Source: a virus. Taken from it: a stretch of 31,786 nt of DNA. Numbering within the stretch: the stretch's first letter is position 1; every line of letters begins with the position of its first letter. The stretch lies in IMG/VR virus record IMGVR_UViG_3300006102_000005, positions 1-31,786 of that record. One strand, 5' to 3'. Positions 816-14,478 of this stretch are shown piece by piece. The notes under the pieces are model-generated. The model saw only the letters and a list, made by a program, of their open reading frames with translations. It did not search any database and was not told the DNA's origin. A program made the translations under genes and the position numbers.

Positions 816-1862
816 TCATTTCGACGGCACCAGGTCGAGCTGCTTCTGCACGAATTGGATCGCCGCCTTCACGTCCTCGATGGTCGGGTGGCGCGAGTCG
901 CCGGCGGTGGCGTCGATGCGGGCGATGACCCGCGCGACGAAATCCATCGCGCCGAAACTATTCGCCGCCTTCGCGAGCAGCAGCGCGGATTCCTTCGCGT
1001 CGCCGTTCAGCCCGGCGTCCGCGAGCACGCGCTGGCACTCCGCGCTTGTTAGCGGGCTCCAGCGATAGACGGTGTGGATGCGACGCTGGAGCTGGCTCCA
1101 TTCGGTGTAATACCGCTTCATCTTGTCGAAGTCCGCGGGCGTGAGCCCCACGACGACCGTCCACTCCGTCTCGTTCAGCACGTCCTTCACGAGATTGATG
1201 CTGCGCGGGCCGAAATAATTCCCCTCGTCAATCGCGAGCACCTTCACGCGGCCCTTCATCGCGTTGATCATCTCGCTGCGCGCCTCGCCCGCGCTGGCGA
1301 ATTTGCCGGTTACGCCGAGCGCGCCCAGGATGTCGCGCGCCGCGTAGAAATACGAGCCGTGCCACGCCTCGTTCGCGTTCACCGCGGTCACATCCTCGCG
1401 CGCCTCCAGCTCCGTGAAAAAGCGCGTCTTGCCCGCGCCGGTCGGCGCCGCGAAAAAGATCAGCCGGTTCTGCCCCTTCTTCGTGAGGCATTCCCTCACC
1501 GAGGCAAAGAGCGCCGCGAAAAGGTCGAACTCGTAAAACTTCCCGCCATCGGAAAGCGTGGCCAGCCGCGCGATGCGGCGGCGGATGGAGATGAGCGCCT
1601 CGCTCAATTCCGCGAAGGTCTTCTTCACATCCTTCGCCTCGTAAAACCCGCGCGTCACCTTGCTATACGTCGCTTCGCTGTAGGTCTTGATCCACTGGTC
1701 GCAAAACTCCTTGTTCGAGAGCGGCACGCCTTCGCGGCCAAGGTGTCGCTGGCATTCCAGCAGGCCGTCCACGATCGCCTGCTGTTCGTGCGTGTAGGTG
1801 GTCCGGGTGCGTTCGGTTTTGAGGTCGGGTTTCGTGGGGGCTTCGATGGTGTGTGTGCTCAT
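816..1862 (-). CDS. AAA+ ATPase, MuB-like transposition protein
   Basis: The 348-residue product has a Walker A motif APTGAGKT at residues 139-146 and a Walker B motif LAIDEG at about 209-214. This is the AAA+ arrangement used by MuB-like transposition ATPases, which coat target DNA and activate the transposase. An N-terminal segment at about residues 22-75 looks like a helix-turn-helix domain, as in MuB. It follows the transposase gene and precedes gam, the Mu order. A start at 1943 would overlap the transposase stop and add 27 residues including eight Thr-Gln pairs. Those pairs are just the translation of an AAACCC repeat. Since AAACCC-rich sequence precedes other early start codons, I prefer 1862, but the longer form cannot be excluded. 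Confidence 0.87.
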   Translation of the reverse strand: MSTHTIEAPTKPDLKTERTRTTYTHEQQAIVDGLLECQRHLGREGVPLSNKEFCDQWIKTYSEATYSKVTRGFYEAKDVKKTFAELSEALISIRRRIARLATLSDGGKFYEFDLFAALFASVRECLTKKGQNRLIFFAAPTGAGKTRFFTELEAREDVTAVNANEAWHGSYFYAARDILGALGVTGKFASAGEARSEMINAMKGRVKVLAIDEGNYFGPRSINLVKDVLNETEWTVVVGLTPADFDKMKRYYTEWSQLQRRIHTVYRWSPLTSAECQRVLADAGLNGDAKESALLLAKAANSFGAMDFVARVIARIDATAGDSRHPTIEDVKAAIQFVQKQLDLVPSK

Positions 1863-1870
1863 GGTTTCTT

Positions 1871-1918
1871 GGGTTTGGGTTTGGGTTTGGGTTTGGGTTT
1901 GGGTTTGGGTTTGGGTTT
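1871..1918 (-). repeat. Eight perfect AAACCC hexamers upstream of the MuB-like start
   Basis: Eight exact copies of the hexamer GGGTTT on the plus strand (AAACCC in the direction of transcription) end eight bases before the ATG of the MuB-like gene. The array can act as an unstructured A/C-rich mRNA leader or, if translation starts at 1943, encode a Thr-Gln run. Changes in copy number would be in steps of six bases and would not shift the frame. Confidence 0.95.
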
Positions 1919-1933
1919 TGTCCTGGGGAAAAA

Positions 1934-4048
1934 TCAGAGCCATGCGGCGGCGGGGTCGGCCTTCGGTTTGCGCGTGGCGGCGTCTTTCAGCGTCTCCTTC
2001 ACGAGATCCACCTTGCGCGTCTCCTGCACGGCGCGTTCAACCTCCGTGCGCGCGGCCTGCACGGCCTCCACCGCCTCCAGCGCGGGCGTCGTGCCGCGGC
2101 GCGCGTTCGGCGCGAGCAGGCCGTTCTCCTCGGCGACCTGCACGTTGTTCGCGTGCGCGGCGCGCACGGCCTCGCGCTGCTCCTCCGTCGCCTTCGTCGC
2201 GAGTTCGTAGCGGTGATTGAAGTGCGCCTCCTTGCGCGCGAAGAACGCGCTCCGCGTGCCGGCATCCGCGTCGCGCCGCAGCTTGCCCTCGCTCGCCCAG
2301 GTCAGCAGGTATCGACGGTTTTTTCCATCGGCGCCGGAGAAAAGATGGATCACTTCGCCATCGGGCCGGTAAAAGCCGCACACCTGCTCGCCGGGCTTCA
2401 GGTCGCCGGGCTCGCCGAGGAAGCGGAATTTCTTCCCGCCCTTGTTGAATTCAAACGCGCCATCCTTCCCGATGCGGTCGATCACCATGCAGTCCTCATA
2501 AAAGATGCTCATCGCTCCCGAGGGCGGCACCAGGAAACGCCCCTGCGCGGAGAGCCGCGCCTTGCGCTCCTCGCGCGTCTCGGGCCGGTCGAAAAATTCC
2601 ACATACTCCGCGAGGTTGTCCTCCGTCACATGCGGCATCGCGGCGAGGAAAGCCTTCAGCTCGTGCCACGGCGCGGGTTCCGCCCGCGTGAAGCCGCGCG
2701 GCCTCCACTCCGTCACCCGCTCAAATCCCTCGCACGTATGATTCGGATTGCGATGGATGCGCTTGAGCGCGTCGAACGTCTCGCGCCACACCTCGTTCTC
2801 CCGCAGATACCCGGTGATGATCCGCTGCTGCTCGTGCGGCGGGAGCTGCACGATCAGATCATCGAGCCGCTTCGCCTCCTGCTCGCGCCCGTAGTCCAGA
2901 GCCGGCGCGTGGTCGCGATCCTTCCCGCTCTGCCCGATGAGATGCGACATCTCATTTTTCAAAATCGAATGGCATCCTTCGTGTCCCGCCTTCGCCTTCG
3001 AGTTCCCGCGCATCCGCTCGCGCCAGCCCTGCATGGATTCGCCTTCCATCCGGTTGAAATGCACCACGACCTGACCCTCGGTGATCGTCTCCAGCATCCG
3101 CGCCTGCGCCGCCGTCAGCGTCGCCGTGCCGTTTTCGCAAAGGAGGTGCATCTGCCAGTCGAGCGGCCATCCATGCTTCTCGAAAAACATCCCGATGAAC
3201 CATAGGAAATCCCGGCTCGTGAGCTGCTCCCAGGTGCCGTCATTCCGAGGCGTCCGCGCCCGCTGGATAAATGTCCGCTCGTCGTAGTAGCTCGCCGAAA
3301 ATTCCCACGCGCCGAATTGAAGCACGCGGCACGGGCCGCACCCCGGCACATGCGTCCGCACGTCGAGCCATACATCGTCCACGCTCACATGCTCCATCCA
3401 CCGCGCACCCTCGCGCGTGCCGGGGATGCCCGGCAGCAGCGCGCGGCCCGCCTGCGTGCCGTGGCGCACCATTTCCACCACGACGGGATCGATCTTCACG
3501 CGGCGGAGATTGTGCTCCTGCAAGCAGCGCGGCAGATACCCCGCATCCGGCGGCGGGCACTGCGGATTCCCGTCCGCGTCCGTCATGCCAGGGATCGCAA
3601 ATTTCGGATCGCCCGTGCGCCACCACGAGCGCCATTGCGCATGGATCGCCTGGATGCCGCGCATCAGCGTCCGCTGCGGCTTCAGCAGCTCCTTGCGCAC
3701 CCAGTCCTCCGTGAGCGGATGCAGCTTCGGCTTGCGCGCCTCGGGAAATTTCCGCTTGTCCAGCAGCCAGCGCCAGTCGCGCCCCGCCGACTCCCATTCC
3801 GCATGAAGCCGCTGGAGATACTGCCAGCTCCATCCGTCCCGTCCCTTTTGCGCCACCGCCCGCGCTCCCGCGTGGCGGTTCGGTGCCGCGGAGATCCGCA
3901 GCATCGCGTCGTGCAAATCCCGCACTTCCTCCGCCGCCTCCGGGTTCGCGGAAAAGTAATGGAAGAACTCCGCGCGATCCGCGTCGTCGGTAAAGGTCAG
4001 CGGTTTGCGCTTCGGATCTGTGGGTGGCAAGAGCGATAGAATCTTCAT
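1934..4048 (-). CDS. MuA-like DDE transposase
   Basis: This 704-residue protein is the candidate DNA strand-transfer enzyme of the element. The family joins the phage ends to target DNA with a metal-binding D, D, E triad in an RNase H fold. Candidate residues are Asp224 or Asp225 in EHVSVDDVWLDV, Glu305 in LLCENGTATLT (a position that is normally Asp), and Glu357 in GNSKAKAGHEGCHS. The first 200 residues look like the helix-turn-helix and end-binding region, and about residues 540-630 (FEFNKGGKKFRFLGEPGDL) resemble the beta-barrel that follows the catalytic core. Length is near MuA (663 residues). It starts 13 bases after the stop of the upstream DUF3102-like gene with no Shine-Dalgarno site. 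The MuB-like and Gam genes follow. Confidence 0.87.
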   Translation of the reverse strand: MKILSLLPPTDPKRKPLTFTDDADRAEFFHYFSANPEAAEEVRDLHDAMLRISAAPNRHAGARAVAQKGRDGWSWQYLQRLHAEWESAGRDWRWLLDKRKFPEARKPKLHPLTEDWVRKELLKPQRTLMRGIQAIHAQWRSWWRTGDPKFAIPGMTDADGNPQCPPPDAGYLPRCLQEHNLRRVKIDPVVVEMVRHGTQAGRALLPGIPGTREGARWMEHVSVDDVWLDVRTHVPGCGPCRVLQFGAWEFSASYYDERTFIQRARTPRNDGTWEQLTSRDFLWFIGMFFEKHGWPLDWQMHLLCENGTATLTAAQARMLETITEGQVVVHFNRMEGESMQGWRERMRGNSKAKAGHEGCHSILKNEMSHLIGQSGKDRDHAPALDYGREQEAKRLDDLIVQLPPHEQQRIITGYLRENEVWRETFDALKRIHRNPNHTCEGFERVTEWRPRGFTRAEPAPWHELKAFLAAMPHVTEDNLAEYVEFFDRPETREERKARLSAQGRFLVPPSGAMSIFYEDCMVIDRIGKDGAFEFNKGGKKFRFLGEPGDLKPGEQVCGFYRPDGEVIHLFSGADGKNRRYLLTWASEGKLRRDADAGTRSAFFARKEAHFNHRYELATKATEEQREAVRAAHANNVQVAEENGLLAPNARRGTTPALEAVEAVQAARTEVERAVQETRKVDLVKETLKDAATRKPKADPAAAWL

Positions 4049-6531: not shown

Positions 6532-6934
6532 CGGTTTCGGGTTTTGGGTTTGGTTTTGGGTTTGGGTTGCTGAAATTCTCGTGCGCGAAATACGCCGCCT
6601 CCGCGCGGAGCACGCGCTCGCGCATCGCATTGCCCGCATCGCCGACCGCCATCCCCGCGCGCACCACCGCATCCCACACCTCGCGCGGCAGCGCCTCGCG
6701 AGCGCTGTCGCCGCAGTCCGCGAGATAATTCTCCCACCACGCCTCGATCAAATCCTCCGCCGGGGCGATCCGTGCCTCCGCGGGCGAAGCCTCGGGCTCG
6801 GGCTCGGGCGGGATCACCGGCAGCATCGCGAGAATGTCCTGCACTCCATCCGCGCCGAGTTCGCGCGAGAGCCACGCGGCGAGGGTGCCGACCGCGCGGG
6901 TGAGCTTGCGGATGTCTGCTTTCACGGCGTTCAT
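6515..6934 (-). CDS. Unknown early protein with Asn-Pro-Lys-rich tail
   Basis: The 139-residue product starts MNAVKADIRKLTRAVGTLAA and contains an acidic, Pro-Glu-rich linker (PPEPEPEASPAEARIAPAED) and then a helical domain with WWENYLADCGD. The last 20 residues (NPNPKPNPKPETDEIND) are translated from the AAACCC-type leader of the next gene, so the same bases probably serve both coding and leader functions. Its ATG overlaps the stop of the upstream gene as ATGA. I do not recognise the family. Confidence 0.62.
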   Translation of the reverse strand: MNAVKADIRKLTRAVGTLAAWLSRELGADGVQDILAMLPVIPPEPEPEASPAEARIAPAEDLIEAWWENYLADCGDSAREALPREVWDAVVRAGMAVGDAGNAMRERVLRAEAAYFAHENFSNPNPKPNPKPETDEIND

Positions 6935-7188
6935 CGTGCCGCTCCTTCCATGCGGGCGAGATATTGCCCGATTCCGCCCGTGCCCGTCGCCGCCTCCGCC
7001 GCCTCGCGGTGGAGCTGCGCCTGGCAGGAGTGTTGCATCGCGAGGTCGAGGTCGCCGGAATCCATCGCCCGCCGCGCCGCCGCCGCCTCGCGCGCCTCGC
7101 ACCTGCGCAGTTCCGAGATCCGCACCTCATCCCCCTTCAGCGAAAGCCCGAGGGCAATCGCATCGCCAGTGGTCTTTAGCGCGGTCAT
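6931..7188 (-). CDS. Unknown small helical early protein
   Basis: The 85-residue protein MTALKTTGDAIALGLSLKGD is followed by an Ala-, Arg- and Glu-rich helix (ELRRCEAREAAAARRAMDSG). Both ends are coupled: its ATG overlaps the previous stop as ATGA and its own stop overlaps the next ATG in the same way, which is the main evidence that it is translated from this start. There is no signal peptide or recognised motif. Confidence 0.58.
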   Translation of the reverse strand: MTALKTTGDAIALGLSLKGDEVRISELRRCEAREAAAARRAMDSGDLDLAMQHSCQAQLHREAAEAATGTGGIGQYLARMEGAAR

Positions 7189-7403
7189 CGTGCTGCCCTC
7201 CGTTTCAACGGGCCACCTGGCTTTTGAATTGTGCGCCCGGCTTGCGCATCGAACCACCCGCGCAGTTCCGACATGAAGCGCATAATTTTCGTGAGGTGGT
7301 AACGCACTTCCGAGGGAAGCTCATCCTCCGCCTGAAGCATCGCCATTTGCCCGGCGGCATCGCGGCAGCGCCGGGCGCATTCCTTGATCTTGTCCTGGGT
7401 CAT
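7185..7403 (-). CDS. Unknown small early protein
   Basis: The 72-residue protein starts MTQDKIKECARRCRDAAGQM and ends in a basic tail (KPGGPLKRRAAR). It is the second gene of the leftward operon, and its ATG overlaps the stop of the RHH regulator (ATGA at 7400-7403). Two cysteines near the start (Cys9, Cys13) and a helical pattern are visible, but no family can be named. Location right after the regulator suggests early expression. Confidence 0.6.
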   Translation of the reverse strand: MTQDKIKECARRCRDAAGQMAMLQAEDELPSEVRYHLTKIMRFMSELRGWFDAQAGRTIQKPGGPLKRRAAR

Positions 7404-7579
7404 AGCGCGGGGATGTTGATCTGGCCGCGCTCGATGCGGGGCAGTTCGTTGAGCAGTGCGAAGCGGAACACTGCGGAATTATTCGAGCCCATCGCCTTCG
7501 CGGCGCGCCGCAGGCGGCGGTGCAAATCCGCGTCGATGCGGACCGGGATGGGCGTCGTCTTCGGGCGTTTTTCTTTCAT
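7400..7579 (-). CDS. Ribbon-helix-helix DNA-binding protein, first gene of the leftward operon
   Basis: The 59-residue protein has the Arc/CopG-type layout: a beta strand TTPIPVRID (residues 8-16), helix LHRRLRRAAKAMG, turn SNNS, and helix AVFRFALLNEL. RHH proteins bind short palindromes as dimers, usually to repress their own operon. The ATG at 7579 is chosen because a near-consensus promoter ends only 9 bases upstream, so an ATG further out at 7660 would lie before the promoter. It is divergent from and clearly similar to the RHH protein at 7663, with about 16 identities over 39 residues by eye. The likely role is repression of the early operon and/or of its divergent partner. Confidence 0.82.
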   Translation of the reverse strand: MKEKRPKTTPIPVRIDADLHRRLRRAAKAMGSNNSAVFRFALLNELPRIERGQINIPAL

Positions 7580-7588
7580 CGTTCGCAA

Positions 7589-7607
7589 TGTATAGCTGAG
7601 ATATACA
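7589..7607. promoter_or_regulatory. Putative RHH operator, TGTATA-N7-TATACA
   Basis: A perfect 6-bp inverted repeat with a 7-base spacer covers the -10 region of the leftward promoter. Short, AT-rich dyads of this kind are typical RHH operators. One flank extends to GTATAGC (7590-7596), whose inverted copy GCTATAC occurs at 7646-7652 next to the other start. Confidence 0.65.
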
Positions 7608-7618
7608 AAAGCTGTCAA
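7589..7618 (-). promoter_or_regulatory. Leftward early promoter, near-consensus sigma-70 type
   Basis: On the minus strand a perfect TTGACA (7618-7613) is followed after 18 bases by TATACA (7594-7589). Transcription would start near 7582, only 3-4 bases before the ATG at 7579, so the first mRNA would be almost leaderless. The -10 element overlaps an inverted repeat that is a likely operator. Confidence 0.8.
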
Positions 7619-7645
7619 AGAAAACTTTTGGATTTTTTCAAGGGT

Positions 7646-7653
7646 GCTATACG
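7646..7653 (+). promoter_or_regulatory. Putative rightward -10 and operator half-site (GCTATACG)
   Basis: TATACG at 7648-7653 lies 9 bases before the ATG at 7663 and could serve as a -10 element, again giving a nearly leaderless mRNA. Upstream, TTTTGG (7626-7631) is only a weak -35 match. GCTATAC is the inverted copy of GTATAGC at the opposite promoter, so one regulator could bind both. Confidence 0.5.
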
Positions 7654-7662
7654 ATACCACCG

Positions 7663-7977
7663 ATGGCAGACACCACGCCGATCCCGATTCGCCTCACACG
7701 GACATTCATTTCGCGGATGGACGTTGCGGCGAAGCGCATGGGCACGAACCGCTCGGCGATGATGAAATTTCTCCTCAAGACGTTTCTCGACAAGTTCGAG
7801 CGCGGCGGCTTTTCGGCGCTTCCCCACGATTGGGAAAACATCATGCACGATCTCGACGGGCGCACCTTCGGCCAGCAGGCATCGCTTCGCGCCGCCGAAA
7901 CCCCCGGCGAGTCGCCGCTCGCAAACCTCCCGCGCAAGCCCGTGAAATACAGTTCGCCTCCGAAAAAGAAAAAATGA
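7663..7977 (+). CDS. Ribbon-helix-helix DNA-binding protein, first gene of the rightward operon
   Basis: The 104-residue product begins with an RHH domain: strand TTPIPIRLT (residues 4-12), helix FISRMDVAAKRMG, turn TNRS, helix AMMKFLLKTFLDKF. A C-terminal extension of about 55 residues ends in PPKKKK. The N-terminal domain aligns with the divergent RHH protein at 7579 without gaps, suggesting duplication. It sits first in the rightward set, and its stop overlaps the ATG of the following secreted protein (ATGA). By analogy with Cro/repressor pairs it probably opposes the leftward RHH protein. Which is repressor of lysogeny and which of lysis cannot be told from sequence. Confidence 0.8.
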   Translation: MADTTPIPIRLTRTFISRMDVAAKRMGTNRSAMMKFLLKTFLDKFERGGFSALPHDWENIMHDLDGRTFGQQASLRAAETPGESPLANLPRKPVKYSSPPKKKK

Positions 7978-8786
7978 AAGCAGCATTCATCGCCTTGCTC
8001 GCGTTTGCCACTTCCGCGCTGGCGCTCGACATCAGCATCCCCGGAGATCGCACATACAGGGATTGCACGAACCTCCGAGCGGATAAAGACATCCTTGCAT
8101 TCACCCACGCAGATGGCGCCGCGCGGGTTCCCTATGAAAAACTGCCTTCCGCAATGCAGTCAAAGTTTTTTGATGGAACGAAGATCGCGGGATGGCAGGC
8201 AGAGCGCCGAGCCATGGAGGGGCGAGCAGCCGTGGCGGCGGCAGAGGCCGCGCGCCAGCGTGAGGCTGCGGAAGCGGCAAGACGCGAGCTAATCGCGACT
8301 GCTGCTGCGGAGGCGACAAGGGCGAAGGCGGACGCCGCAGCAGCGGATGCCAAAAAACGCGCGAAGGCCGCGGCGGCAGAAGCAGAGAACCGGCGTCGTC
8401 TCGACAATTATCGCAGCGGCAAATGGGAGCGATTCATTGCAACGATGGTCGGGCCTGCTGAGGGCGGGCAGATCATGCGCAAGCCGGACGGAACCACAAT
8501 TTACGTCGCGAATGACGCTGGCATCGCCCAAGGCGAGCATTTACGAGGGTATTTCGAGCGGGACGGGAACTACGAATACACGGCAGCGGGCGGTGGCGCT
8601 GCACGAGTGAAAAAGTATGTTTACCGCCAGAATGCCAGTCACGACATGGGAGAAGATTTGATTGAGCTGATGAAATTAAAGAACGCGATGATGGCGAGAA
8701 AAATCACCAGAGAAGAGATTGAAAAAATTGCCGATCTGGAGGTGCGCCTGCGCAATGAAGGCGAATCGCCGATTTTGTTGCAATAG
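7974..8786 (+). CDS. Secreted coiled-coil protein, possible host-derived cargo
   Basis: The 270-residue protein has a signal peptide (MKAAFIALLAFATSALA, cleavage probably after residue 17). Residues 18-65 (GDRTYRDCTNLRADKDILAF, then HADGAARVPYEKLP) resemble a small domain I associate with many secreted Verrucomicrobia and Planctomycetes proteins. An Ala-, Arg- and Glu-rich coiled coil follows at about residues 85-140, then a globular C-terminus (GKWERFIATMVGPAEGGQIM). It is not a known structural or lysis protein. It lies between the regulator and the lysis cassette, where phages often carry accessory genes. ATG at 7974 overlaps the regulator stop. A periplasmic or envelope location is inferred from the signal peptide. 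Confidence 0.68.
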   Translation: MKAAFIALLAFATSALALDISIPGDRTYRDCTNLRADKDILAFTHADGAARVPYEKLPSAMQSKFFDGTKIAGWQAERRAMEGRAAVAAAEAARQREAAEAARRELIATAAAEATRAKADAAAADAKKRAKAAAAEAENRRRLDNYRSGKWERFIATMVGPAEGGQIMRKPDGTTIYVANDAGIAQGEHLRGYFERDGNYEYTAAGGGAARVKKYVYRQNASHDMGEDLIELMKLKNAMMARKITREEIEKIADLEVRLRNEGESPILLQ

Positions 8787-11753: not shown

Positions 11754-12139
11754 GTTCCATTGTTTTCATCACGAAGGGCGCGAAGCCATTTACAGGCATA
11801 CCCACAAAGAAAGGGGTGCCAGAGCAACGAACGGCCGTGCGGCCAAGTGACACGCGACGACACCGGTATTCAGCGTCTTCGGACGCGCGGAAATGTTCCT
11901 GCCGAGATTGGAGCTTGGTCGCGCCCAGCAACCGCACCGCCGCGTCGCCGAGTCTGGCACCCCGCGTTTTTTACCCCGAAACCAAAACCGCGCCAGCGCC
12001 CCAAGGTCGTGCCGGAAGCCGTCCGGCCATGACTCCACAGCCGACGCGGGGGGTGAGGGCCTTGAATACCCCTTGCACGGCCTTGAATGACGGCAATCCG
12101 CGCACGCGCGCCGAACTCGACACCCCTTTTTTTCCGTGA
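11754..12139. other. 386-base gap without a convincing gene
   Basis: An open frame of 129 codons starts at 11750 (overlapping the previous stop) and ends at 12139, but its Ser/Pro/Arg/Thr-rich translation looks random, so I do not call it. The gap holds a GCCGGA hairpin (12011-12027) and two copies of GGCCTTGAAT (near 12058 and 12080). On the minus strand a stretch near 11754-11815 reads like a dispersed intergenic repeat. It may contain a promoter for the packaging and head genes, but none is clear. Confidence 0.5.
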
Positions 12140-12844
12140 ATGGAAACCCCAACCCCAAAAGCCGGCCGCAAACCGCACCCGCGTTCATGGATCATGAACC
12201 TGCCCTTCAACGCGGCGGATGCGGAGGAGAAGGGCCTTACGCCGGAATGCACTCAGGAGATCGTCTACCGCATGCTCTGCGAGCCGGGCGCGACGCTCGA
12301 ATCCACCGCCGCGCGCTGCAAATCGGAGTTCTCGGACTTTGGCTGCACGCAGTCGCCGCATGGGCTGGCCAATGCGCTCAGCCTCTGGCGGTTCGAATAC
12401 GAGATGAAGCGCATGTTCCGCAGCCTGGACACGCGGGCCAAAGCCTACGAGGCCCAGCGCAAGGCGGAGAATCCCGACCTCACGCCGGAACAGATCGCCG
12501 CGGACGGACAGCGATTTTTCACCGCGGTGGCCAGCGCTGCGGGCGACGCGAAGACCTTTCAGGATCTGGAGTATCTGCGGCTGGCCAAGGAAACCGCAAA
12601 GGTCAAGGGCGAGCTGGAAACCGCGAAGCTGGAACTGAAGAAAAAGCAGGTATCCCTCAAGGGCACGGAGGTGCAGCTCGCGATCGACAAATTCCAATGG
12701 GACGGCGCGAAGGAGGCGCTCGCGAAACTCAAGGAGCTGAAGTCCATCGCGGCGGACCGTTCGCTGAACGACGATCAGAAAATCGAGCAGGTGCGGCTGC
12801 GGCTGTGGGGCGCGCCGCCGAAGGAAATGGAGGGCAAGGCGTGA
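12140..12844 (+). CDS. Small terminase subunit-like protein
   Basis: The 234-residue protein directly precedes the large terminase and overlaps it as GTGA, the place of Mu gp27. It starts METPTPKAGRKPHPRSWIMN. Residues 35-90 (LTPECTQEIVYRMLCEPGAT onward) look like a helix-turn-helix DNA-recognition domain. The rest, about 90-215, is a long helical region with coiled-coil character (KETAKVKGELETAKLELKKK). This matches the usual small-terminase layout, which binds phage DNA and feeds it to the motor. Sequence similarity to a named family is not obvious, so the call rests mostly on position and architecture. Confidence 0.68.
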   Translation: METPTPKAGRKPHPRSWIMNLPFNAADAEEKGLTPECTQEIVYRMLCEPGATLESTAARCKSEFSDFGCTQSPHGLANALSLWRFEYEMKRMFRSLDTRAKAYEAQRKAENPDLTPEQIAADGQRFFTAVASAAGDAKTFQDLEYLRLAKETAKVKGELETAKLELKKKQVSLKGTEVQLAIDKFQWDGAKEALAKLKELKSIAADRSLNDDQKIEQVRLRLWGAPPKEMEGKA

Positions 12845-14478
12845 GCAAGCTCACCCGCAAAGTCCGCGCCGGCATCGTGCGTGCGAAAGGCACTGCCGCC
12901 GCCGTCGTCGCCGCGGTGGCCATGACGGCCGTGCAGGAGGCTCCGCCGGCCTTTCCTGTCGCGAAGGAGGCCGCACCCGGCGCGATCCACTTCCGCAAAT
13001 ACCAGGAGCCGGTCTTTTGGGATCACACCACGAAGACGCAGATCATCCACTGGTCGCGGCAAATCGGAAAGAGCTACACGCTCGCGGCGTGGGCCGTGGA
13101 ACGGCTGCTGCGCTTCCCCGGCCGGCTTGTCACCGTGCTTTCCAATTCTCGCGACAACGGCGCGGAGTTTGTGCTGAAGGTCGAGGACATCTGCCGATCG
13201 ATGGGTGCCGTCATCGAGGGCATCGAGGCGGAGAGCAACCAGGACGAACTGAACGCGAACCAGACCCTGAGCGAGGATCTCAAGTTCGACGCCATGCGCT
13301 TCGAGGTGAAGATCACCGTGCGCGGCAAGACCGGGCGCATCAAGGTGCTCGCGGCGAATCCCCGCACGGCGCGCGGCTTCTCCGGTGATCTCATCCTGGA
13401 CGAATTCGCCTTCCACGAAAACAGCGCCGCCATCTGGGAGGCCGCGGAACCGATCATCTCCAGCAACCCGGATTACCTCTGCCGCATTTCCAGCACGGGC
13501 AACGGGAAGCGGAACATGTTCTACCAGCTCATCAGCGCCGGCGAGATTCCCTACTACCGCGTGCGCCGCAGCGACGCCTGGGCGATGGGCGAGATCAAGA
13601 TTCACAGCATCGTCAGCGGCAAGGAAATCACGCCCGACGAAGCGCGCCGGCAGGCCGCGGACAAGCGGGCCTACGATCAGAACTACGAGTGCGCGTTCAA
13701 CGACGAGAACGCCGTGCTGCTCACGCAGGAACTCATCAGCGCCGCCGAACGCGCCAACATCCCGATTGATGCCCAGGCGTGGAGTGCGGGCAGCGTGCAG
13801 CGGATGTATCGCGCCGAGGGCGAGCTGTTCGCCGGGCAGGACTTTGCCCGCATCGGCGATCTCAGCGTGTGCGCCGTCTTTGAAAAGATCGGGCGCATCA
13901 AGCGCATCATCGGCCTGCTCATCATGGAAAACATGCGCATCAGCGCGCAGTTTGCCGAGTTTGAAAAAGTGGGGATGCTGCCGAAATTCCGGCGCGCGTG
14001 CTTTGACATGACGGGCAACGGCCTCGGCCTTTTCGAGATGGCGGAGGAGAAATTCGGAACCGCGCGGATCGAAGGCGTGAACTTCTCCAGCACGGAGCCC
14101 GTGACGGATCGCATCCGCAGCGAAGGCCGCAAGGCCCCGACCGCGAAGGTCACGGAGATCATGGCGACGAATCTCGTCGCCGAGTTTGAGGACCGGACGA
14201 TCGAGATCATGCCCGACGCCGCGCTGCGCGACGACCTGCGCAAGCCCGAGAAAATCACCAGCCCTGGCGGACGCGTGAGCATCGCCGCCGCGCGCGACGT
14301 GAAGGATCACGCCGATCGCTTCTGGGCCATCGCGCTGGCGATCCGTGCATCGCTCAAACAGGCGGCACCTTTCGGATTCGATGCGGTCTCCGCCGGCGCG
14401 CGGCTCGGGGATGAGGACGGCTTGGATCGCACCGCCGCGCGCGACCGGAACCTCGGCAGAAAGGCGGTGTCCGCATGA
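12841..14478 (+). CDS. Large terminase subunit, Mu gp28-like
   Basis: The 545-residue product is the DNA-packaging motor and headful nuclease. A Walker A-like SRQIGKS lies at residues 72-78 and Walker B LILDEF at 184-189 (Asp187, Glu188). The C-terminal nuclease half shows acidic candidates Asp334 (FAGQDFARIGD), Asp389 (RACFDMTGNGLG) and Asp489/Asp492 (DVKDHADRFWA), as in the RNase H-like domain of the family. Translation starts at GTG 12841, overlapping the small-terminase stop by GTGA, and the gene ends in an ATGA overlap with the portal. Length fits Mu gp28 (about 550 residues). Confidence 0.9.
   Translation: MSKLTRKVRAGIVRAKGTAAAVVAAVAMTAVQEAPPAFPVAKEAAPGAIHFRKYQEPVFWDHTTKTQIIHWSRQIGKSYTLAAWAVERLLRFPGRLVTVLSNSRDNGAEFVLKVEDICRSMGAVIEGIEAESNQDELNANQTLSEDLKFDAMRFEVKITVRGKTGRIKVLAANPRTARGFSGDLILDEFAFHENSAAIWEAAEPIISSNPDYLCRISSTGNGKRNMFYQLISAGEIPYYRVRRSDAWAMGEIKIHSIVSGKEITPDEARRQAADKRAYDQNYECAFNDENAVLLTQELISAAERANIPIDAQAWSAGSVQRMYRAEGELFAGQDFARIGDLSVCAVFEKIGRIKRIIGLLIMENMRISAQFAEFEKVGMLPKFRRACFDMTGNGLGLFEMAEEKFGTARIEGVNFSSTEPVTDRIRSEGRKAPTAKVTEIMATNLVAEFEDRTIEIMPDAALRDDLRKPEKITSPGGRVSIAAARDVKDHADRFWAIALAIRASLKQAAPFGFDAVSAGARLGDEDGLDRTAARDRNLGRKAVSA

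Follow-up and report, generated by a model that had tools for sequence, protein, structure and literature searches.

Two small genes that face away from each other across an 83-bp control region, both encoding ribbon-helix-helix (RHH) proteins, probably act, in a Mu-like Verrucomicrobiota phage, as the primary lysis/lysogeny (transposition) switch. The window that we analyzed is a 31,786-base IMG/VR virus record. The right-hand protein (RHH_R) would act as the repressor and the left-hand protein (RHH_L) as a Ner/Cro-like regulator, the two would share half-sites in the control region, and the genes with their operators would be exchanged as a unit. The relevant features of the window are the following:

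816–1943, minus strand: MuB-like DNA transposition protein (AAA; phrog_296, E 2e-12; Pfam AAA_22)
1934–4048, minus strand: MuA-like transposase (26% identical over 630 aa, E 9e-27, to a protein of L010)
7400–7579, minus strand: RHH_L, 59-aa ribbon-helix-helix protein (ATG at 7579, stop to 7400; Pfam RHH_1)
7580–7662, no strand: AT-rich divergent control region, 83 bp, read from the sequence
7587–7592, minus strand: left -10-like box TACATT (TANNNT), 7 nt to the ATG
7590–7606, no strand: candidate left operator GTATAGC-TGA-GATATAC, over the left -10 (inverted repeat; perfect repeats at the left start in relatives)
7643–7661, no strand: candidate right operator around GCTATAC, over the right -10 (imperfect palindrome GGTGCTATACGATACCACC)
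7650–7655, plus strand: right -10-like box TACGAT (TANNNT), 7 nt to the ATG
7663–7977, plus strand: RHH_R, 104-aa ribbon-helix-helix protein with a C-terminal extension (ATG at 7663, stop at 7977)
7974–8786, plus strand: exported-looking protein, overlapping the RHH_R stop (ATGA)
12136–14478, plus strand: large terminase subunit (phrog_2, E 4e-29), the anchor for finding related phages

Gene order and the two RHH proteins

The MuA- and MuB-like genes run leftward and the late genes (terminase, portal, head protease, scaffold, major head protein and tail fibre) run rightward, so that RHH_L opens the leftward group and RHH_R heads the rightward genes. By strand and order, the divergent pair stands at the head of the MuA/MuB-like gene group, which is the arrangement of a Mu-type switch. 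The MuA-like protein of the window presented no direct family match of its own and no match in phage records; the L010 protein that it resembles matches the phrog_310 transposase (E 5e-11). In the early region, a 108-aa protein (6931–7257) gave a weak PADLOC match to PprPIWI (E 2e-4), which we take as chance.

The first-pass annotation had described two small divergent RHH genes separated by 83 bases, and its coordinates are correct. RHH_L scores 20.7 bits against Pfam RHH_1, above the cut-off of 20.5, and on this score belongs to the RHH (CopG/Arc/MetJ) superfamily. RHH_R by itself gives a weak Pfam RHH match below the cut-off (E 0.29); its relative in the L134 phage lies above it (20.8 bits), and a profile built from RHH_L, RHH_R and related proteins matched solved RHH proteins. 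The AlphaFold model of RHH_R (mean pLDDT 70.6) is a monomer that shows both helices (residues 13–26 and 30–48, at about 90), with the beta-strand and the dimer not resolved in it. Residues 2–49 of this model match RHH chains almost exclusively (CopG, PutA, AtaR, Arc and others), with scores that make the structural match weak when taken alone (Z of about 4; Foldseek E >0.2), as expected for a 45-residue domain. Based on homology, profile and model together, we assign RHH_R to the same superfamily.

The two proteins were also thought to be paralogues, from about 16 identities in an ungapped alignment of 39 residues. This count was too low: we found 21 identical residues out of 48, again without gaps (E 8e-12), and RHH_L and RHH_R are, judging from their sequences, true paralogues. 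The beta-strand is the DNA-reading part of RHH proteins, and the two strands are nearly identical (TTPIPVRI and TTPIPIRL), which suggests that the two proteins share half-sites. The C-terminal extension of RHH_R contains a motif around W57 and DGR, and P8, R10 and W57 are conserved.

The control region between the two genes

The heptamer GTATAGC and its inverted copy GCTATAC, previously noticed at the leftward and rightward -10 elements, are present at 7590–7596 and 7646–7652 and lie symmetrically, each 10 nt from its respective ATG. GCTATAC occurs three times in the whole window (0.19 expected). A single 7-bp pair is weak by itself, since an inverted repeat of this length is not rare when the AT-rich gap is shuffled (P = 0.16); requiring that each arm be no more than 14 nt from its ATG brings the shuffle P to 0.024. 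The candidate left operator presents 6-bp arms (TGTATA/TATACA at 7589–7607), and the 19-bp palindrome of the right operator was picked out by eye from the sequence.

The -10 elements had been placed 9 bases from the ATG. This distance is right if the hexamers are read as TATACA and TATACG, but TACATT and TACGAT, exactly 7 nt from the start codons, are the better-placed -10 reading. Leaderless genes in other bacteria carry TANNNT about 6–7 bp ahead of the start codon (PMC3160421, PMC12340547), and both RHH genes of the window have this spacing. Moreover, RHH_R of the L134 phage is preceded by the identical hexamer TACGAT at identical spacing. We found TANNNT 5–9 nt ahead of 7 of 16 starts of RHH pairs (2.6 expected; P = 0.01), against none of the 21 control starts taken from the other genes of the window. 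In this count, L181, L118 and L189 had their right-hand starts misplaced by one base; the spacing of L181 changes from 8 to 7 and the count stays the same. No enrichment was observed in the kin that carry HTH/HTH pairs (5 of 36 starts, chance level), so the leaderless spacing is not a family-wide rule. A missing Shine-Dalgarno sequence says little, since 15 of the 21 other window genes also lack one. A sigma-70 promoter scan of 7200–8100 called no strict promoter; a TTGACA (7613–7618) lies 18 nt upstream of the TATACA that overlaps the left -10-like box. On the TANNNT reading, transcripts would start close to both ATGs and be nearly leaderless.

We propose that RHH_R dimers would hold down the leftward early promoter and so maintain lysogeny. 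Upon induction, RHH_L, as the first early product, would act back on the control region in a Ner/Cro-like manner, and the switch would operate in the way of Mu c/Ner or lambda CI/Cro. Both proteins, as dimers, would use their beta-strands to compete for TATAC-centred half-sites that overlap the two -10 boxes, and each bound protein would block one or both of the very short-leadered promoters. From sequence, TATAC half-sites and the constraint on a -10 box cannot be told apart.

Related phages and exchange of fold

Relatives were gathered with the terminase as anchor. The closer genome matches to the terminase are mostly named as Verrucomicrobiota, and the host of the window phage presumably belongs there. 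Direct scans of IMG/VR with RHH_R and with MuB returned no relatives, and a tblastn search of 50,697 phage records with RHH_L and RHH_R gave no match. A family search found RHH_1 in 6 of 37 kin records. Divergent RHH/RHH pairs are present in the window, in L134, L024, L119 and L023 (the prophage of Verrucomicrobia LW23, L072), and in prophages of the genomes G131 and G089. In L134, the orthologues of RHH_L (41% over 51 aa) and RHH_R (34% over 98 aa; E 4e-14) are divergent, and RHH_L is followed on the same strand by a phrog_310 transposase and, further along, the terminase, with RHH_R pointing the other way. In the Verrucomicrobiota genome G131, an RHH pair including an RHH_R orthologue lies near MuA, MuB and terminase genes; the L023-like RHH pair of G089 has a MuA transposase nearby. 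The database search suggested by the first-pass annotation therefore shows the divergent layout recurring beside transposase genes in related phages, which argues for a real regulatory module.

The same annotation had left room for homologues to reveal two unrelated proteins, and they did not. Across two phage groups, the right-hand proteins resemble right-hand proteins and the left-hand proteins resemble left-hand proteins, which indicates that the duplicate pair is old and has been kept. G131 is an exception, as its own left and right proteins are closest to each other. The right protein of L119 has no Pfam match, and only its sequence pattern and the topology of its model are RHH-like, the fold search having given no clear assignment. 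In L118 the left RHH_L-type gene is intact, and the right-hand repressor gene is truncated to about 31 codons (L118:6548–6645; MPGKHAEGTKLIGLYAEAQLV...); the repressor may have been lost there, or the contig may contain an error.

Several relatives carry perfect inverted repeats at their left start sites, with lengths of 13 bp (L024), 10 bp (L023) and 11 bp (L119) and shuffle P values of 0, 0 and 0.002, respectively (500 shuffles). By eye, a 10-bp inverted repeat at a start site is given for L192 (left start) and for G131. These repeats bear on the most serious alternative to shared operators, namely that the switch is real but its sites owe their symmetry to -10 boxes and chance, with the two proteins using different operators. 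TATAC does resemble a -10 box, the 7-bp repeat of the window has the unremarkable shuffle value given above, and Arc and Mnt of P22 are homologous RHH repressors yet use different operators (PMC7549136). Against this stand the longer perfect repeats of the relatives and the near-identity of the beta-strand residues, both in the window pair and in the G131 pair (IPTRF/IPTRF). We consider separate operators a possible outcome, if a less probable one than shared half-sites; they are compatible with the repressor roles and incompatible with the shared-operator step of our proposal.

Two observations in relatives place RHH_R, by analogy, in the repressor position. The order in L134 is that of Mu (c followed divergently by ner-A-B), and the right RHH protein of the LW23 prophage is fused to a peptidase domain. 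Indeed, this protein joins RHH_1 (E 0.01) to a LexA-type Peptidase_S24 (E 2.5e-12); by eye, it seems to have the catalytic Ser and Lys together with an Ala-Gly site for cleavage (predicted). Among 388 Verrucomicrobiota genomes, the RHH-S24 fusion was found in LW23 only; the N-termini that were read among the other S24 matches look HTH-like by eye. RHH together with peptidase S24 was found nowhere in 5.39 million open papers, a weak absence since most of the subscription literature lies outside. Two of these open papers, PMC3564109 and PMC8987985, bring up RHH and transposable phage together, and PMC3564109 mentions RHH solely for AlgZ.

Other kin present a different fold in the same place. In 19 of them, the left gene of the divergent pair in the equivalent slot encodes a short Cro-like protein and the right gene a longer CI-like HTH protein; 13 of 18 right proteins match HTH_3 and four carry Peptidase_S24. 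The HTH/HTH pairs were chosen by eye among divergent pairs, and some left proteins without a Pfam match were likewise assigned by eye, so that mixed RHH/HTH pairs could have been missed. The classification leaves out L006, L133 and about a dozen kin without a clear pair. Within this by-eye set, left and right agree in fold in every pair that could be classified, and the independent-pairs concordance is 3 of 3 (P = 0.25; three contrasts are too few for significance). With 23 kin on a terminase tree, five changes are required to account for the five RHH rows; well-supported branches force at least four of these changes, and the AU test rejects a single RHH clade (P = 9e-11). A larger terminase tree, with more rows and long branches, gave seven changes. 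The nearest kin of the window, L004 (terminase 81% identical), has a CI-like HTH right protein in the slot, with a left protein that is HTH by eye and has no Pfam match.

These results suggest that both genes and their operators would form a cassette passed between phages as a unit, with the cassette of the kin built from HTH proteins. We lean slightly towards a more general form of this proposal: the primary lysogeny switch of transposable Verrucomicrobiota phages would be a cassette in which both regulators and their operators change fold together, between HTH/HTH and RHH/RHH at least four times, and whose RHH version has also been joined to a LexA-type S24 domain, giving an SOS-cleavable RHH repressor.

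Two further features of the slot were observed. RHH_R (window 7930–7977) and the HTH repressor of L004 (L004:5026–5074) have similar C-terminal tails, PVKY and then basic residues, and each gene overlaps the next ATG by four bases. The tail comparison covers RHH_R and the L003/L004 HTH repressor; read from the sequences, the common tail hints at a swap within the gene, although a tail of this length is too short to be reliable evidence. Finally, the right-hand proteins of L006 (4789–5100) and L133 (3340–3639) have no Pfam match and a common C-terminal motif, EHRL.EI, and they may represent a further, unrecognised DNA-binding type in the slot.

Relatives of RHH_R were also found in 13 of the 388 Verrucomicrobiota genomes. 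Most have a divergent RHH gene beside them and often adjoin ordinary chromosomal genes, which indicates that the module is not phage-only; some neighbours are response-regulator-like, and an integrase-like gene is nearby once. To judge by these sequences, divergent RHH pairs are a broader theme in Verrucomicrobiota, beyond transposable phages. The RHH_R-related divergent pairs of L222, L223 and L225 (near 9270, 3640 and 9505, respectively) have ordinary chromosomal genes next to them and a response-regulator-like protein following one partner, and are perhaps a host-side use of the module. L228 (8620–9877) carries a divergent RHH pair of 293 and 60 aa with a weak integrase match nearby (E 0.014) and a nearby protein that is terminase-like by eye, with no Pfam match; this is perhaps a non-transposable prophage with a similar switch. 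In genome G165, the RHH_R relative (L195:5989–6264) contains an in-frame TAG stop and its divergent RHH partner is intact.

Alternative roles and comparison with known systems

The RHH pair might instead run an accessory gene, such as an antirepressor or cargo, in a secondary immunity circuit with the main repressor elsewhere. The immI region of P22 has the equivalent divergent RHH/RHH anatomy, with mnt (minus strand) and arc (plus strand) divergent across 90 bp and the Arc and Mnt operators between them (NC_002371), and it controls ant and not the early operon. However, the window pair opens the transposition gene group, at a position taken in the kin by CI/Cro-like HTH pairs, and in LW23 the S24 domain carried by the RHH protein speaks for a main repressor. 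In addition, the gene that follows RHH_R (7974–8786) had no match in a Pfam search, so no antirepressor domain is recognised there, and none was recognised in the scanned genes after RHH_L. We regard a secondary circuit as unlikely. A role as antitoxin-like or partition-like proteins with autoregulation only, and no lysis/lysogeny switch, is slightly less likely still and not favoured: RHH folds are common in antitoxins, the best structural neighbours include AtaR, MazE and ParG, and divergent RHH pairs also occur in host chromosomes, but the adjacent genes scanned matched no toxin family, and two observations favour repressors: the slot is that of the HTH repressor pairs, and RHH is found fused to S24.

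If the proposed primary switch is true, these phages offer a natural experiment in which a bistable switch has been rebuilt from unrelated DNA-binding folds, its wiring of two divergent regulators around one control region being kept. It would give RHH proteins, beyond side roles such as antitoxins and P22 immI, a place as the main lysogeny switch in a group of bacterial phages, and it would suggest an SOS-responsive RHH repressor. It would also put on offer a compact regulator pair from Verrucomicrobiota phages.

An RHH/RHH genetic switch had been thought unusual among Mu-type phages. Such a switch is not without precedent, as Mnt/Arc of P22 immI and F55 of SSV1 illustrate, but its proposed use at the primary switch of transposable phages would be new. 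P22 immI and the window pair are alike in having two homologous divergent RHH genes over a short gap, which in P22 holds operators over overlapping promoters. They differ in that immI is a second immunity region controlling the antirepressor Ant, whereas the window pair heads a transposition gene group, and RHH_R presents no BLAST similarity to Mnt. In the archaeal virus SSV1, lysogeny is maintained by an RHH protein, F55, which covers early promoters as well as the promoter of its own gene (PMC5569661). There a single regulator acts on tandem ATAGATAG sites, with no divergent paralogue in the account of PMC5569661 and no transposition genes.

Closer in gene order is phage Mu itself. The Mu repressor gene c is divergent from the small regulator gene ner, the first gene of the transposition operon, and both c and Ner are winged/HTH-type proteins. 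The order of repressor, small regulator and transposase is seen again in the L134 phage. In the window, however, both proteins are RHH and the late genes lie on the strand of the repressor; since both regulators are RHH and not winged/HTH, the likeness would be one of c/Ner-like working, with no homology to c or Ner. The kin L005 and L021 carry CI-like HTH repressors with Peptidase_S24 in the equivalent slot, as the right-hand gene of the pair, and thus combine HTH with S24, whereas L023 combines RHH with S24 and the window has RHH without S24. Relative to these known systems, what is new is an RHH pair at the proposed primary switch of transposable phages, the repeated exchange of fold and the RHH-S24 fusion.
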